Shown: piece by piece, positions 2,949 through 32,089 of the stretch
How the letters are laid out: each line of letters begins with the position of its first letter
How positions within the stretch are numbered: position 1 is the first letter of the stretch
Assembly: GCA_020345765.1 (NCBI GenBank)
Contig: CP070770.1
Span: forward strand, 3,082,115 to 3,114,203
Source of the DNA: Deltaproteobacteria bacterium
GTDB lineage: Bacteria > Desulfobacterota > G020345765
Direction of reading: 5' to 3'
DNA length: 32,089 nucleotides
The notes under the pieces: generated by a model
What the model was told of the DNA's origin: nothing
Databases searched by the model: none
What the model saw: only the letters and a program-made list of their open reading frames with translations
Position numbers and translations under genes: made by a program

Positions 2949-4626
2949 TTTGTGCCTCCTTGCTTTCTCCGCCATTACCATAAGTCCTGACCCTGTCCAT
3001 CAGGGCGGGAACATCCACGATCAGCACCACCCTTCCGTCGCCAAGAATGGTAGCACCGGCAATCCCCACGGAATCGCCGATATAATCGTCCAGGGCCTTG
3101 ATTACGATCTCTTGCTGCCCCCTGAGGGAGTCCACGACAATGCCCATCTGCCCGCCGGTGCCCTGGACGATGACGGTGTAGACACTTCCTCCGTTGGGAG
3201 AATGGGCGAGACCGAATAAATCGGTAAGCCGAACCAGGGGGAGGACATAGTCCCGGAACTTCGTTACCTCGCGGTTGTTGACCAGGTGGATCTCCTCGTT
3301 AGCTACCTTGATACTTTCGACCACGGAGGCCAGGGGGATAGCGTATTGCTCTTTCGAGGCCTCGACCATCAGGGCGGAGATAATCGCCAGGGTCAAGGGG
3401 AGTTTGATGGTAAACCGGGTTCCGACATTACGCTCGCTCTCCAGCTCGACGCTTCCGTTGATCTTGGCAAGGCTCCTCTTGACTACATCCATACCCAGGC
3501 CGCGGCCGGAGACCTCGGTCACTGTTTTTGCGGTGGAGAGCCCGGGAAGGAAGATCAGATCAATCAGCTCACGGTGACCGATCTCGTCCTTCGGGAGCAA
3601 ATCGGCCTGCCCGGCCTTCTTACGCAGTTGCTCTTCGTCGATGCCCCTTCCGTCGTCTTCCACGGTTATAATAATATGGCTCGACTCCTGATAGGCTCTG
3701 ATGAGGATCATTCCCTGCCGGGGTTTACCCAATTCCTCCCGATCTCCGGGATTCTCGATACCGTGGTCGATGGCGTTACGGATCAGATGCATGAGGGGTT
3801 CCCCGATCTCATCGATCACCGTCTTATCGAGTTCGTTATCCTCGCCCTCGAATTTGATCTCGATCTCCTTGCCCTTTTCCCGTGCCAGGTCCCGGACGAG
3901 GCGGGGAAAGCGCATGAACACCTGTTTGAGGGGAAGCATGCGAACCTTCATGATTGCCTCGTGGAGTTCGGTTGTGATCTTGCCGATCTGCTCCGAGGTG
4001 CTGCTGAGTTCCAAGCCGATGCCCTTTTCGCCGAAGGTCTCTTTGAACTGGGTATCGATCTGCCCGAGCCGGGTGCGGGAGATTACCAGCTCCCCCATTA
4101 AATTCATAAGGTGGTCCAGACGCTCGAAGTCCACCCTGATAACGTTTGTCTTCTTGGCAAACGGGCTGATTGATTCCTTAGAGGGTGTTGCTGCCCGCAA
4201 TTCCGGAGAGGTTAGCCCTGATTTCACATTCTCCGTGATAAATTGCTTCACGTCGGCTATATCTTCCTTCAGGTCCGGGCCCGCCGGGCTTTCGGGGGAA
4301 ATCTTTGAAATGGCGTTTTCAAGGATTCTCGCGCTTTGCATGGAGAATTCCGCCAGGGACTCGTTCAGGTTGATGGTTCCTGATTGGAGAGCCTTGAAAA
4401 GATCTTCTAATTTATGAGTGTATTTTTGGATGGAGGAATACCCCATCATTCCGGAATTGCCCTTGAAGGTATGGAGCAGACTGAGGACGTCGTTAATCAG
4501 TTGGGGGTCGGGCTCCTGATCAACCATCTGTTCCAGTTGCAGGAGCATGCTCTCGAATTCCTCGAGGAACTCCGTGGCTTCTTCTATGTATTCCTTGATC
4601 AGCTCGATTTGATCGCTAAATTCCAT
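2941..4626 (-). CDS. cheA: Chemotaxis histidine kinase CheA (no P2 domain)
   Basis: 561 residues. The P1 (HPt) domain carries the phosphorylated histidine at H52 in LLHTFKGNSGMMGY. P3 dimerisation begins near residue 160 (LMNLMGELVISRTRL). The P4 ATPase domain has the N box HLIRNAIDHGIE (280-291), G1 DDGRGID (324-330), the F-box region LIFLPGLST and G2 GRGLGMDVV (374-382). The CheW-like P5 domain fills about 410-550. Only about 50 residues separate P1 from P3, too few for a separate P2 CheY-docking domain, so CheYs must dock elsewhere. The ATG at 4626 has AAGGA 7 bases upstream. It starts 51 bases after one cheY and overlaps the next by 8 bases. All catalytic motifs are present, so it should be an active kinase. 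Confidence 0.97.
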   Translation of the reverse strand: MEFSDQIELIKEYIEEATEFLEEFESMLLQLEQMVDQEPDPQLINDVLSLLHTFKGNSGMMGYSSIQKYTHKLEDLFKALQSGTINLNESLAEFSMQSARILENAISKISPESPAGPDLKEDIADVKQFITENVKSGLTSPELRAATPSKESISPFAKKTNVIRVDFERLDHLMNLMGELVISRTRLGQIDTQFKETFGEKGIGLELSSTSEQIGKITTELHEAIMKVRMLPLKQVFMRFPRLVRDLAREKGKEIEIKFEGEDNELDKTVIDEIGEPLMHLIRNAIDHGIENPGDREELGKPRQGMILIRAYQESSHIIITVEDDGRGIDEEQLRKKAGQADLLPKDEIGHRELIDLIFLPGLSTAKTVTEVSGRGLGMDVVKRSLAKINGSVELESERNVGTRFTIKLPLTLAIISALMVEASKEQYAIPLASVVESIKVANEEIHLVNNREVTKFRDYVLPLVRLTDLFGLAHSPNGGSVYTVIVQGTGGQMGIVVDSLRGQQEIVIKALDDYIGDSVGIAGATILGDGRVVLIVDVPALMDRVRTYGNGGESKEAQNA

Positions 4627-5087: not shown

Positions 5088-6242
5088 TCAGTAAGATTTC
5101 CTTTGAAGGTGTTTTCGGAGAAAGGTGTTTTCGAAAATAAGCCCGGCCTGTCCGGCGGCGATCTCGAGAAATTCCAGATGGCAAGGCGGTTTGGCGAGAG
5201 ACCCGTTGTCTCCGTAGACCAGGCAGCTTACCCTCTCCACTCCTGCAATCGGGAGGAGCAACACCTCCGGCATTTCCGGTGGGCCAATCACGCGGTAGAT
5301 GTCCTTCAACCAATTCTGTGAAGGAGGAATCCCGCTAAACAGTGATCGGCTTTCAATGCAGTTCAGGAGGAGGGAGTCCGTCTCGAGGGGGATCCGCATA
5401 TTTTTTACCTTATTATTCAAAGAGCGATGATCGGTGGTCTGCCCGACTCCCCCCAGACCCAAAAGCTCACTTCTGCGGGCCAGGAAAAGAATGGCCCGCT
5501 CCATATGCTCGGAAAGAATTTTCAGGAAATGAACCGAGATCGATTGAGCTTGCCCGTTTTTTCTCCCCGCAAGCAGCATCTTCTTAAGGAGAGAAAAAGA
5601 TTGAGCAGGGTCATCGAAACCGGCGGTCGGTAAGGTTATTCCCTCCTTCTCTTCCCCAAAGGTTGTTTCGGCATCCAATTCCGGAGCCAGCGCATTGAAA
5701 GTCTCTAAAACCTCCCGGGCATCCTTTCCCTGATTTTTCATCTCGTCAAATATCCGCACCGCTTCGAGAAGGAGGGACTGGGTATCAATCTCTTCGGGCG
5801 GGACGACATCATCGGGAGAAACGGAGATATCGTCCAGAAACATATGATCTTCCAGTTCGAAGTGGAAGGAGCCTTCTTCCCAGCTGATCAGTTCATAGAT
5901 TACTCCCCCGATCTGCTGGATCATGGTATCCCGGAGTGTCTTATGGGTAATAATACCCTTCTCTTCCATAATCCTCCCCAACGGCTTTGCCTGGGGCATA
6001 TTCTTTTGGATCCGGACGGCTTCTTTCAAATCTTCTCGAGTAATCTGCCCTCGTTCGAGTAACAAATCGCCGATATTGATCATCTTCGGCCGCGTGGCAC
6101 GGACAATATGACCGTCCTGAAAATAAACCTGCCCGACTTCTTTCCAGTTCTGGAAATGCAGGATCCCACTCTTCTGGCTGGCATGAATATACTGCATGAT
6201 ATCGATCACCGGAAAATCCTCAATTTGCCCCGAGAAGCTCAT
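5088..6242 (-). CDS. PATAN (DUF4388) domain protein with C-terminal GAF-like region
   Basis: 384 residues. The N-terminus (SFSGQIEDFPVIDIMQYIHA, then SGILHFQNWKEVGQVYFQDG) is the PATAN/DUF4388 signature. It is followed by a helical module IGDLLLERGQITREDLKEAV and a second similar helical pair, LGRIMEEKGIITHKTLRDTM, resembling MshE-N/GspE-N helices. The last 160 residues read as a degenerate GAF-like fold (LLLPIAGVERVSCLVYGD, then AAGQAGLIFEN). PATAN proteins are common in PatA-type regulators and in motility or exopolysaccharide signalling of delta-group bacteria, where they mediate protein contacts. The ATG at 6242 follows an in-frame GTG at 6245; no strong ribosome site is seen, but the gene begins 12 bases after the GAF gene, so coupling is likely. 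Ligand and partner are unknown. Confidence 0.85.
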   Translation of the reverse strand: MSFSGQIEDFPVIDIMQYIHASQKSGILHFQNWKEVGQVYFQDGHIVRATRPKMINIGDLLLERGQITREDLKEAVRIQKNMPQAKPLGRIMEEKGIITHKTLRDTMIQQIGGVIYELISWEEGSFHFELEDHMFLDDISVSPDDVVPPEEIDTQSLLLEAVRIFDEMKNQGKDAREVLETFNALAPELDAETTFGEEKEGITLPTAGFDDPAQSFSLLKKMLLAGRKNGQAQSISVHFLKILSEHMERAILFLARRSELLGLGGVGQTTDHRSLNNKVKNMRIPLETDSLLLNCIESRSLFSGIPPSQNWLKDIYRVIGPPEMPEVLLLPIAGVERVSCLVYGDNGSLAKPPCHLEFLEIAAGQAGLIFENTFLRKHLQRKSY

Positions 6243-6254
6243 CACAATTATTTT

Positions 6255-7100
6255 TTACACCGAACCCGCTTTCGCACTGTCCAGCTTTAACAGCTTGATG
6301 AAGCCCTCGACGGTCCGGAGCTTCCTCTCCGTACGGCTGTAGAGGTTCGAGCTGACCAGTGCCGTGGCCGCATGATCGGCCAAAAGGCTGAGGAGCTCGT
6401 AATCGATGGTGGTGAAACCTTCCTTCTTGTGGTCCAGCAGCTTCGTGATCGAGATGGCTCCCACCACATCGTCCTTTACCTTCAGCGGGGTGCAGGCCAG
6501 GTGCGGTGAATTCGACTCACCTTCTTCCCGAAAATACACCTTCCCGTTATGCAAAACATCCGTCAAAACCGGATCAACCTTGGATAAACTCTTCGCGCGG
6601 ATGGGTCCCTCCGGACCTTCACCTGCAAGGATTATGGGCAATTTCCTTTTGTCGTCCTTCATGTAGACGAAATACTGCTCTGCCCCGATCAGGTTGAGGA
6701 TGATCTCCTCGATAACGTTTACCACCTCACTCGGATTCAGCGTGGAATGAAGCTGATAGCTGGCCACATAGAGGTTCAGAAGGTTGTCATTCTGGCTCTG
6801 GATCGCCACATAGCGCTGGGCGAAATCCTTGTTCTCCCTCTCCGTCTCGTCGAAGCGGGCCGACAGTTTCTCAAGTCTCTCCCGGAGCTCCCGGTTTTCA
6901 TCCAAAAGCTTGTTCAGGTGTTTCGGATCCGTCCGGGAGTGAAATTCCATTTTCTCCTTTTCGAATTTAAGCAATTGCATCCGGAGCCGTTCGTTCTCTT
7001 TCATCAGCTCCTCGGTAAATGCCTTGCCCTTTTCGAGATACCCGAGGAGCTCCTCGGTCCTGCGAAAACTCTCCGAGGCTTTTCTGGCATCCTTGCTCAT
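6255..7100 (-). CDS. Coiled-coil GAF-domain protein
   Basis: 281 residues. Residues 1-105 are strongly heptad-patterned (EELMKENERLRMQLLKFEKE, then LDENRELRERLEKL) and should form a long coiled coil. Residues about 110-265 are a GAF domain: LYVASYQLHSTLNPSEVVNV, EIILNLIGAEQYFVYM, ACTPLKVKDDVVGAISI and LLSLLADHAATAL. GAF domains bind small ligands or serve as contact surfaces; no kinase or output domain follows. The ATG at 7100 overlaps the preceding response-regulator stop as ATGA, so translation is coupled. In this operon it probably acts with the PATAN protein as a cytoplasmic input or scaffold for the CheA pathway. The ligand cannot be inferred. Confidence 0.88.
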   Translation of the reverse strand: MSKDARKASESFRRTEELLGYLEKGKAFTEELMKENERLRMQLLKFEKEKMEFHSRTDPKHLNKLLDENRELRERLEKLSARFDETERENKDFAQRYVAIQSQNDNLLNLYVASYQLHSTLNPSEVVNVIEEIILNLIGAEQYFVYMKDDKRKLPIILAGEGPEGPIRAKSLSKVDPVLTDVLHNGKVYFREEGESNSPHLACTPLKVKDDVVGAISITKLLDHKKEGFTTIDYELLSLLADHAATALVSSNLYSRTERKLRTVEGFIKLLKLDSAKAGSV

Positions 7101-7492
7101 GTTTGCGACATCGTTGCGAGATTGCTGACAATCCCGAGTTTCTTCAGATGGTCATTCAAGATCCTCAGGTCGATGGGCTTGTCGAAATAAAAATAGGCAC
7201 CCTTATCGTAAGCCTCCTTTTCGATCTCCTTGGACCCGTAAGCAGTCATGATAATCACCTTGGTCCCGGGACTTTTCTCCTGAATATACTCAAGAAGCTC
7301 AAGACCTTCCCGACCCAGGATACCGGTCAACCTGATGTCGGCAATCACCAGGTCAAAGAAGGTGTGATTGAGGGCGTATTCGGCCTCCTCGATCTTGGTT
7401 GCAGTAATTGTCTCCACATTATCCGACTTCAGGGCCTTGCTCAGGAGCAAGAGAACACTCTCTTCATCGTCCACAATCAAAATCTTTTTCAT
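7097..7492 (-). CDS. Single-domain response regulator heading the chemosensory operon
   Basis: 131 residues from the ATG at 7492, chosen because AGGAG lies 9 bases upstream and the sequence then opens MKKILIVDDEESV. This is a receiver domain with D8/D9, phosphoacceptor D52 in LVIADIRLTG, the switch Thr in IIMTAYGS and the Lys in YFDKPID. The tail after the domain is short (about 12 residues), so there is no output module. Its MTAYG motif is closer to NtrC-type receivers than to the two CheYs downstream, so it may answer to a different kinase. It is the first gene of the operon, about 73 bases behind the predicted sigma-54 start point. Confidence 0.93.
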   Translation of the reverse strand: MKKILIVDDEESVLLLLSKALKSDNVETITATKIEEAEYALNHTFFDLVIADIRLTGILGREGLELLEYIQEKSPGTKVIIMTAYGSKEIEKEAYDKGAYFYFDKPIDLRILNDHLKKLGIVSNLATMSQT

Positions 7493-29288: not shown

Positions 29289-30638
29289 TTATGATTGCAG
29301 GCTATACTTCTTGATCTTCTTAATTAAGGTGGAGCGGTGTATTCTTAATATCTCGGCAGCCTTGGAACGGTTGTTATTGCAAGCGGCAAGCACCCTCTCG
29401 AGGTGTCTCCTCTCCATGGTCTCCAGGAGCCAATTTTCTTCGGTAGGCAGTTTGGGTGAGATTTTCCTGCGTCTTAGATTATCGGGCAGGTCTATTGTTT
29501 TAATTACACTGTCTTCACAGAGAAGAACCGCCCGCTCAATTACATTCCTCAACTCCCTCACATTTCCGGGCCAGGGATAATAAAGCAGCATCGCCTCCGC
29601 TTCCGGAGAGATGCCGGAAACATCTTTGACGAACAGCCGCTTGAAATCCTCCAGGAATATGTTGGCCAGGGGAAGGATGTCCTCGCTCCGGCCCCGAAGC
29701 GGGGGCAGGGATATGGGCATCACATTCAAACGGAAATAAAGATCCTTCCTGAACCTGTTCTCCTTCACCGCCCTCTCGAGATCGGTATTGGTAGCCGCCA
29801 TAATCCGAACGTCCACCTCAATGTTGGTGGTTCCGCCCAGCCGGCGGAAGTTCTTTTTCTCGATGACCTTCAGCAGCTTGGCCTGCACGGACAGGGACAT
29901 TTCCCCGATCTCGTCCAGAAAGACACTTCCCCCATTGGCGATCTCCAGGAGTCCCCGTTTAAAGGCCTTGGCGTCGGTAAAAGCGCCTTTCTCGTGACCG
30001 AAGAGCTCTGACTCCAGCAGTTCGCTGCTCAACCCGGCACAGTTGATCTCCACAAACTGGCCGTTGCGCCGGTTGCTCAGTTCGTGGATGGTATTGGCGA
30101 CCAGGCCCTTGCCGGTGCCGGTTTCGCCCAGGATCATCACATTGGTGGAGGAGTTGTCCGCCAACAGCCGGATCGCATGGTATACCTCCTCGGGCTGCCT
30201 GAGCATTTTGAGAAGGGTAGAGCCCTCCAGGCGGGATACCTTCCGCTTGAGATAATGAACCTCTGCCTGGGTGCGGTAGCTCTCCAGGCTCTTATCCACC
30301 ATGGCCTCCAGCCTCTCCAGGTCGATGGGCTTGAGAACAAAATTATCGGCCTTTATCTGGATAGCCTTCACTGCGATCTCCACATCGCCATAGGCGGTGA
30401 TGATAATCACCCCCGTGCCCGGGGAGTCGCTCTTGATAGCCTTCAGGACGTCCAGTCCGTTCATGTCCGGAAGTTTGAGATCCAGGAGGACCATATCCAT
30501 CGGAGTCCTTTGACAAAGCTCGATCCCGCTTTTGCCAGTGTAAGCTATCCGAACATCGAATCCCTTTGCCCCGAAATACTTCTTCAGATTGTAGCAAATG
30601 AACTCATCATCATCCATGATCAGCATTGAGTTAAACAT
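29289..30638 (-). CDS. Sigma-54-dependent response regulator with GAFTDA variant
   Basis: 449 residues. The receiver domain has D9/D10/D11, phosphoacceptor D53 in MVLLDLKLPDMNG, ITAYG and LKPI. The AAA+ domain has Walker A GETGTGKG (171-178), GAFTDA (218-223) in place of GAFTGA, Walker B GSVFLDEI, arginine fingers in FRKDLYFRLN and WPGNVRELRNV. A Fis-type HTH ends the protein (CNNNRSKAAEILRIHRSTLI). The Gly to Asp change in the sigma-54 contact loop occurs in some natural activators and need not kill function. No sensor kinase is adjacent. It is divergent from the partial regulator at 30908 across a 269-base gap. Start at 30638 lacks a ribosome site. Confidence 0.95.
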   Translation of the reverse strand: MFNSMLIMDDDEFICYNLKKYFGAKGFDVRIAYTGKSGIELCQRTPMDMVLLDLKLPDMNGLDVLKAIKSDSPGTGVIIITAYGDVEIAVKAIQIKADNFVLKPIDLERLEAMVDKSLESYRTQAEVHYLKRKVSRLEGSTLLKMLRQPEEVYHAIRLLADNSSTNVMILGETGTGKGLVANTIHELSNRRNGQFVEINCAGLSSELLESELFGHEKGAFTDAKAFKRGLLEIANGGSVFLDEIGEMSLSVQAKLLKVIEKKNFRRLGGTTNIEVDVRIMAATNTDLERAVKENRFRKDLYFRLNVMPISLPPLRGRSEDILPLANIFLEDFKRLFVKDVSGISPEAEAMLLYYPWPGNVRELRNVIERAVLLCEDSVIKTIDLPDNLRRRKISPKLPTEENWLLETMERRHLERVLAACNNNRSKAAEILRIHRSTLIKKIKKYSLQS

Positions 30639-30711
30639 TTTTTACCGGCGGCGGATTAAAAGGATAATAAGAAAACTCTATTTCTGATAATGTTTGACTT
30701 TCATTATATTT

Positions 30712-30739
30712 TGTATAATAATTAACGGTAACATGTCAA
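30712..30739 (-). promoter_or_regulatory. Sigma-70-type promoter for the GAFTDA regulator
   Basis: On the minus strand TTGACA (30734-30739) is followed after 16 bases by TATACA (30712-30717), an acceptable -10. Transcription would start near 30705, about 67 bases before the start codon. The region is A/T-rich, so other -10-like sequences exist. Confidence 0.5.
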
Positions 30740-30907
30740 TAGAAAAATGTTAATAATTACAAATACTTATAGCTAATATTCTGTCCATTTTCGACTAATT
30801 TTTACAAGTGATGGCTAATACAGCACCCATTGGTTATAAAAACATAATGGTTTCCTGATGTTGCCCTTGAGAGCTTTTGTATAATCTAACGGCAAAAAAA
30901 TAAAACG

Positions 30908-32089
30908 GTGAAAAAAAATAAAACAAAAATCCTAATAGTGGATGACGATGAAGGTATGAGGGATACCCTGGAATCCATTCTCCGGGATTATTACGATGTA
31001 CTTAAGGCCGGGGACGGAGAGAGGGCTTTAGAAATGTTAGAGAAGAATGATGTAAATATCGTATTGCTTGATATTCTCTTGCCGGGTATGGATGGTCTGA
31101 CGGTCTTAGAAAATATTAGGGAATACCACAAAGATATTGATGTTATCGTGGGAAGCGTGGTTAAAAAGACAGATCATATAGTAAGGGCAATAAAGCTTGG
31201 CGCCTATGATTATCTAACTAAGGATTTTGACTACGATGAAATTAGACTTAAGATAAACCGCTTGGTCGAGCACCGGAAAAGAGAGAGGGAGTTGGTCTCA
31301 CTCCAGGAGAAGATCGGAGCTCGGATGGAGAATGAGTTTATCATCGGCAAGAACTCTGCCATTCGGATGGTATGGGAGACGGTAAAGTCATTCTCAAAAT
31401 CTGATTTACCGATATTTATCTCGGGAGAGCCCGGAACGGGAAAGCGGCTCCTCGCCCGAGAGATCCACGAGTTGAGCGATAGGACGGGCTATCCCTATGT
31501 CCCGGTAAACTTACATCTCATCCCTAAAAATTCCGTCAATTATATCCTGTTCGGCAGGGGATGTGCTTCCCCCTCTGTCCTGAATGGTTCTCCCGTCAGC
31601 AAAATCGAGCGCGCTGGCCAAGGAACATTAGTTTTATACGGTATCGAGAGTCTATCAAGGAAAAACCAACAAAGATTGCTGACCGTGCTCGAGGACAGGA
31701 AGCTTGAAAGAACCGGCAGGGAGAGGCACCAAAAAATTGATTTCCGACTTATAACCGTTTCCGAAAGAACCACCGATATTTTATTTGAGGATGCTAATTT
31801 CGACCCAAGGCTTCTTACTAAAATAAGTAAGATTAAGATTGAACTGCCCCCGTTAAGGGAGAGGTTCGAAGACATTCCCGAACTGACAAGGTATTTTATT
31901 AAAAAATACTCGGGTGAACTAAATAAAAGCCCAATTACAATTAAAATACAGGCTTTGAATTCACTCCTGAAATATCACTGGCCGGGAAATGTAGCGGAAC
32001 TGGAGAACCTAATGCAAAAATTAGTCATCACCGCTTCCGGTCCTAAGATTACGAAAAACGACATCCCCTTGGAATACGTAGCAATAAAC
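30908..32089 (+). CDS. Degenerate NtrC-family regulator (pseudo-ATPase), right end cut
   Basis: 394 residues from GTG at 30908, open to the window edge, so a C-terminal DNA-binding domain may lie outside. The receiver is near-normal (VDDDEG, phosphoacceptor D55 in VLLDILLPGMDG, Lys105), though MTAYG is replaced by VGSVV. The AAA+ part keeps Walker A GEPGTGKR (173-180), LPPLRER and WPGNVAELEN. However, the GAFTGA loop is gone (the region reads NYILFGRGCASPSVL), Walker B reads GTLVLYGI so both acidic residues are lost, and the FRxDLYYRL arginine-finger segment is FDPRLLTKI. It probably cannot hydrolyse ATP or contact sigma-54 in the usual way. It may bind DNA or heteromerise. The frame is intact, so it is not simply a decayed gene. 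A -10-like TATAAT lies at 30880-30885. Confidence 0.85.
   Translation, partial: MKKNKTKILIVDDDEGMRDTLESILRDYYDVLKAGDGERALEMLEKNDVNIVLLDILLPGMDGLTVLENIREYHKDIDVIVGSVVKKTDHIVRAIKLGAYDYLTKDFDYDEIRLKINRLVEHRKRERELVSLQEKIGARMENEFIIGKNSAIRMVWETVKSFSKSDLPIFISGEPGTGKRLLAREIHELSDRTGYPYVPVNLHLIPKNSVNYILFGRGCASPSVLNGSPVSKIERAGQGTLVLYGIESLSRKNQQRLLTVLEDRKLERTGRERHQKIDFRLITVSERTTDILFEDANFDPRLLTKISKIKIELPPLRERFEDIPELTRYFIKKYSGELNKSPITIKIQALNSLLKYHWPGNVAELENLMQKLVITASGPKITKNDIPLEYVAIN

Follow-up and report, generated by a model that had tools for sequence, protein, structure and literature searches.

The gene at the end of the window (the whole 32,089-nucleotide stretch that we analyzed, G000:C1:3082115-3114203) encodes a response regulator of the NtrC family in which the receiver domain and AAA+ fold are retained and the motifs for ATP hydrolysis and sigma-54 engagement are replaced. 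It belongs to a family of five degenerate copies, spread over two sister species, that evolves under purifying selection; judged by that selection, the feature is real and functional. From the sequences, we think it fairly likely that the protein, controlled through its receiver and unable to hydrolyze ATP, binds DNA and regulates sigma-70-type promoters, that of its own gene included.

Results

The reading frame begins with GTG and runs for 394 codons without a stop. At 30890-30910, the ATG used by its relatives is lost, and the apparent GTG start lies a few codons downstream. Features of the gene are as follows.

30908-32089, + strand: degenerate NtrC-family response regulator, receiver (REC)-pseudo-AAA+-lid, with the C-terminal helix-turn-helix (HTH) removed by an assembly gap (ORF list, Pfam, PspF alignment)
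30929-31255, + strand: REC domain, amino acids 8-116 (Pfam PF00072, Response_reg; alignment)
31340-31843, + strand: AAA+ Sigma54_activat domain, amino acids 145-312 (Pfam PF00158, fold)
31424-31444, + strand: Walker A GEPGTGK, kept (PspF alignment)
31565-31582, + strand: site of GAFTGA (L1 loop), here ASPSVL (PspF alignment; low model confidence at the site)
31637-31642, + strand: site of the Walker B Asp-Glu, here Tyr-Gly (PspF alignment)
31802-31822, + strand: site of the RxDxxxR arginine-finger motif, here DPRLLTK (PspF alignment)
31856-32077, + strand: AAA+ lid, AAA_lid_14, amino acids 317-390 (Pfam PF25601)
31994-31996, + strand: site of the sensor II Arg (GNVRE), here Ala (PspF alignment)

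The receiver domain (95 bits to PF00072) has everything expected of one: the phospho-acceptor D55, the acidic pair that completes the triad, the Ser/Thr position and K105 (VDDDE, LLLD, GSV, TK), with KDF in place of the usual KPF. The AAA+ domain scores 106 bits against PF00158, well above the cut-off of 20.2, compared with 218 bits for the intact neighboring regulator. Aligned residue by residue with E. coli PspF, our reference, the protein keeps the Walker A Lys (K42) and the switch Asn (N64). Walker B is replaced (D107 to Y, E108 to G), as are the arginine-finger motif (R162 to D, D164 to R, R168 to K), sensor I (N149 to E) and sensor II (R227 to A); the L1 loop is of unchanged length, though its sequence is gone, as is every catalytic residue. 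These alignments bear out the original prediction, made from the letters of the window, of an uninterrupted 394-residue frame in which Walker A and the AAA+ layout persist while GAFTGA, the Walker B Asp-Glu, the arginine fingers and the GNVRE Arg are replaced. In PspF, D107A, E108A, R162A, D164A and R168K each reduce ATPase activity to ~0.1-0.2/min from 39.5 (PMC3419264). Since any one of these substitutions leaves PspF with almost no activity and the same residues are lost here, the comparison supports a protein unable to hydrolyze ATP. An AlphaFold2 model has a confident NtrC-like fold (mean pLDDT 81.8) in which the replaced L1 loop is disordered (residues 219-228 <50); the closest solved structures are NtrC1 (1ny5), NtrX and NtrC4, and FleQ and VpsR match as well.

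Four other genes carry the same losses, which is more than chance would give. Two of these paralogues, L020 and L018, lie in the genome of the window (G000) and are 61-65% identical to the window copy; the other two, C555 and C174, come from the independently assembled genome of a sister species (G001; JAUWWP01, deposited as 'Deltaproteobacteria bacterium CSMAG_2661'). GAFTGA is absent from all five copies and the Walker B Glu is Gly in each, with the Asp position variable (Y, S, K, N, N) and the arginine-finger positions also varying. All three complete copies (L020, of 463 amino acids, C555 and C174) end in a C-terminal Fis-type HTH (HTH_8). In a tree, the five copies group together as a single clade (support 100/100). 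The nearest intact relative of the window protein is a paralogue of a type that we call L011 (40% identical), and the other near intact relatives are mostly acidobacterial regulators (37-41%; both groups together, 37-43%). These response regulators share the architecture and the unusual KEF/KDF receiver signature of the degenerate family, but their catalytic motifs and GAFTGA are all intact, so the losses arose after a duplication inside this lineage. The degenerate family was found in none of 297 genomes of the phylum outside the genus and, among the matches listed in a scan of GTDB contigs with chosen patterns, only in the sister genome.

The regions upstream of four family copies can be aligned over ~200 bases; the L018 leader has hardly any match to the others. 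The leader of the window copy contains three candidate elements.

30694-30722, + strand: promoter-like TTGACT-N17-AATAAT where the conserved leader begins (leader alignment; not above chance by scan)
30767-30790, + strand: degenerate first palindrome, candidate operator 1 (leader alignment)
30809-30832, + strand: second palindrome, TGATGGCTAATACAGCACCCATTG, candidate operator 2, with 2 mismatches to TWATGGST-N8-ASCCATWA (pattern scan)

Across the aligned leaders there is a promoter-like TTTGACT/TATA stretch, which likewise does not exceed chance by scan, and two palindromes ~31-46 bases apart with the consensus TWATGGGT-N8-ACCCATWA. Both mismatch-free sites in the two genomes (n = 2) fall within leaders of the family; of the four one-mismatch sites, two belong to the leaders of truncated family remnants, which thus keep their palindromes too. 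These are 5′ remnants of family copies, at G001:C555, about 4140-4480 on the minus strand, and at G000:1401013-1401268 (L163:1501-1790). Because paralogous leaders share ancestry, conservation of the palindromes is suggestive and is partly explained by descent. We also considered that the palindromes form RNA hairpins and rejected this reading; pairing is broken in several copies, which favors operators.

When both genomes were scanned for a regulon, matches with 1-2 mismatches outside family leaders were at chance level (29 and 11 for the control pattern), those that were checked lay mostly inside ORFs, and no convincing unlinked target of the palindromes was found. One operator-like palindrome with 2 mismatches, at G000:1957452-1957475 (L154:1501-1524), lies ~80-100 bp upstream of a gene for a 977-amino-acid multi-PAS histidine kinase; it is unmatched in the sister genome, and is a weak lead that may be due to chance. 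A scan of the window for sigma-54 promoters gave 7 matches against 8.6 expected, a chance level, and none was in the leader.

On the other side of the leader is a second regulator.

29289-30638, − strand: divergent NtrC-family response regulator with GAFTDA, Walker A/B, arginine fingers and HTH (ORF list, Pfam, sister-species comparison)

Besides GAFTDA, this protein has GKG after Walker A (the PspF E43 position) near the AAA+ start, and its match to PF00158 starts only at profile position 9; it is somewhat unusual and otherwise complete. In its sister-species orthologue (L137:5518-6864, G001:C174), Walker A reads GEIGTDK, with the last Gly of GxxxxGK replaced by Asp, and LPPLRDM stands in place of LPPLRER. 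With these substitutions, this orthologue too may be on its way to losing the ability to bind ATP. PilZ-domain genes lie near both sister-species copies of the degenerate gene (L138:1787-2158 and 5338-7338; L137:7582-7800), and downstream of one there is a gene with a Wzz/GNVR domain. On this circumstantial evidence, the family may be linked to c-di-GMP or exopolysaccharide; the PilZ genes are not repeated near the copies in the genome of the window.

Could the degenerate protein be a dead subunit that assembles with this neighbor, or with the L011-type paralogue, into a mixed ring and so tunes or poisons sigma-54 activity? The head-to-head pair is kept in the sister species with a partner that is 78% identical, an intact L011-type paralogue sits on the other side of the degenerate gene there, and sigma-54 is present in both genomes. 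There are also precedents, since hetero-oligomeric enhancer-binding proteins are known (HrpR/HrpS, FleQ/FleT, VnfA paralogues; PMC9542535) and PspF mutants in Walker B and in the arginine fingers complement each other in trans (PMC3419264). However, the divergent partner is just 27% identical to the window protein and is not its nearest intact paralogue, and L020 and C555 have no adjacent activator in the flanking sequence examined. Moreover, the ATPase interface is lost on both sides (R162, D164, R168, Walker B), which leaves no half-site that a mixed ring could complement, and a pure poison would need neither an HTH nor conserved leader palindromes. We regard such a subunit or anti-activator as unlikely. 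A more specific version, in which dead subunits gated by phosphorylation would join rings of the L011-type paralogue or of the divergent partner, their stoichiometry would determine the sigma-54 output and the several dispersed copies would make control graded, seems rather improbable.

The copies might instead be dispensable duplicates that are losing function, with the window copy on its way to becoming a pseudogene. Truncated remnants do exist (G001:C555:4146-4471, G000:1401013-1401268), and together with solo leader fragments (G001:C338:1024, G001:C452:3120, G000:2269973) they show the family both spreading and decaying in the two species. The longest branch belongs to the window copy, which also has GTG in place of its relatives' ATG. 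Pairwise dN/dS between degenerate copies is 0.19-0.30 (NG86) or 0.32-0.56 (YN00); the NG86 values for single domains are 0.15 (REC), 0.27 (AAA+) and 0.31 (lid), compared with 0.15 for REC and 0.17 for AAA+ in the intact L011-type pair. Thus, the AAA+ fold of the degenerate copies is still under selection, less strongly than in living ATPases. Although the higher AAA+ value would fit decay, REC is as constrained as in the intact paralogues, five long frames stay open across two species, the HTH is kept, and 57 columns are invariant across the family and differ from both L011-type paralogues. We consider general decay quite improbable.

The window gene itself lacks an end. The original prediction had proposed looking past 32089 for a Fis-type HTH; the assembly there has exactly 100 N followed by unrelated sequence, so the frame is cut by an assembly gap and not by a frameshift, and what lies past the N is no evidence for a neighbor of the gene. 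A contig starting at ~G000:921161-921162 (L139:5162-5350) opens with the terminal codons of a family member, encoding an HTH that is 64% identical to L020 residues 419-462. After this HTH come a small convergent Cro/C1-type HTH gene, then an intact regulator of the L011 type and then a TonB-dependent receptor. The same three genes follow the complete degenerate gene in G001:C174, which on its other side is flanked by the divergent orthologue of the 29289-30638 regulator. Given this conserved gene order, the window gene almost surely continues on the G000:921162 contig, with ~67 bases unsequenced between. L018 is likewise cut by a join and lacks its end, yet gene order points to the window copy as the source of this HTH.

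The 100-N join could suggest an artefact of assembly or sequencing, but the replaced motifs all precede the join, and the four other genes have lost them too, two of these in an independent assembly; we dismiss this explanation. A sequencing error, a frameshift just beyond the window and a lack of orthologues had each been named as grounds on which the original prediction might fail; the recurrence of the losses in the second assembly, the gap and the existence of relatives with the same substitutions remove all three. Its pseudo-activator is now well supported by those relatives, by purifying selection and by the Fis-type HTH of the complete copies.

Discussion

E. coli DhaR, which is controlled by DhaK and DhaL, resembles the window protein most closely in its losses. 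It keeps the Walker A Lys (K42) and switch Asn (N64), lacks GAFTGA and differs from PspF by DE to EK, R162S, D164Q, R168A and R227F, nearly the same set, and has a Fis-type HTH as in the complete family copies. Its N-terminal sensory part is of another kind, whereas the window protein has a receiver domain, and the two are remote relatives (159 bits against an NCBIfam DhaR cut-off of 551 bits). DhaR is reported to be sigma-70 dependent (PMC3162934), and by analogy the degenerate family probably works in a similar way. E. coli TyrR is also a sigma-54-independent NtrC-family regulator without GAFTGA. However, it keeps Walker B, R162, D164, R168 and R227, all lost in the window protein, and among the motifs compared GAFTGA is its sole loss, apart from sensor I.

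The NtrC proteins of Rhodobacter capsulatus and Caulobacter are receiver controlled and lack GAFTGA, with L1 deleted in both, and act at sigma-70 promoters; the R. capsulatus protein needs ATP binding, and the Caulobacter protein depends on residues of both Walker A and Walker B (PMC10274813). The window protein differs from them in keeping the length of L1. Vibrio cholerae VpsR is described, in work cited in PMC10274813, as a receiver-like domain with a degenerate enhancer-binding domain and an HTH that acts with sigma-70 and has no need of ATP. Its structure (7v2b) matches the window protein at lower similarity (TM 0.55, 23% identity). The effector of VpsR is c-di-GMP. With NtrC-family origin, loss of GAFTGA and a Fis-type HTH in L020, C555 and C174 (for the window copy, we infer it from the G000:921162 contig), the family is a genus-limited form of the already known class of sigma-54-independent NtrC-family regulators, the class of DhaR, TyrR, HupR and VpsR, and not a new category.

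How might such a protein function? These genus-specific, multi-copy response regulators descend from sigma-54 activators. A histidine kinase would phosphorylate the intact receiver and thereby alter how the pseudo-AAA+ domain dimerizes or oligomerizes. Given its lost motifs, this domain is predicted neither to hydrolyze ATP nor to engage sigma-54. It would serve instead as a scaffold, perhaps still able to bind nucleotide at Walker A. The C-terminal HTH would then bind the paired palindromes at sigma-70-type promoters, the family's own leaders among them, where it could repress or activate. Three roles had been proposed for the pseudo-activator: an anti-activator, a heteromer partner of the divergent regulator and a DNA-binding regulator of sigma-70 genes. 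The DhaR-like pattern of losses, the conserved palindromic leaders and the lack of a sigma-54 promoter nearby make the last the best supported; for the other two, the evidence comes down to the conserved head-to-head synteny.

For genes of this kind, annotation as a 'sigma-54-dependent regulator' from PF00158 alone is wrong. The family presents five receiver-controlled AAA+ regulators without an ATPase engine, maintained by selection in genomes that also contain intact paralogues. This natural series allows one to ask what use an AAA+ fold has once hydrolysis is lost, be it dimerization, nucleotide sensing or the poisoning of rings.
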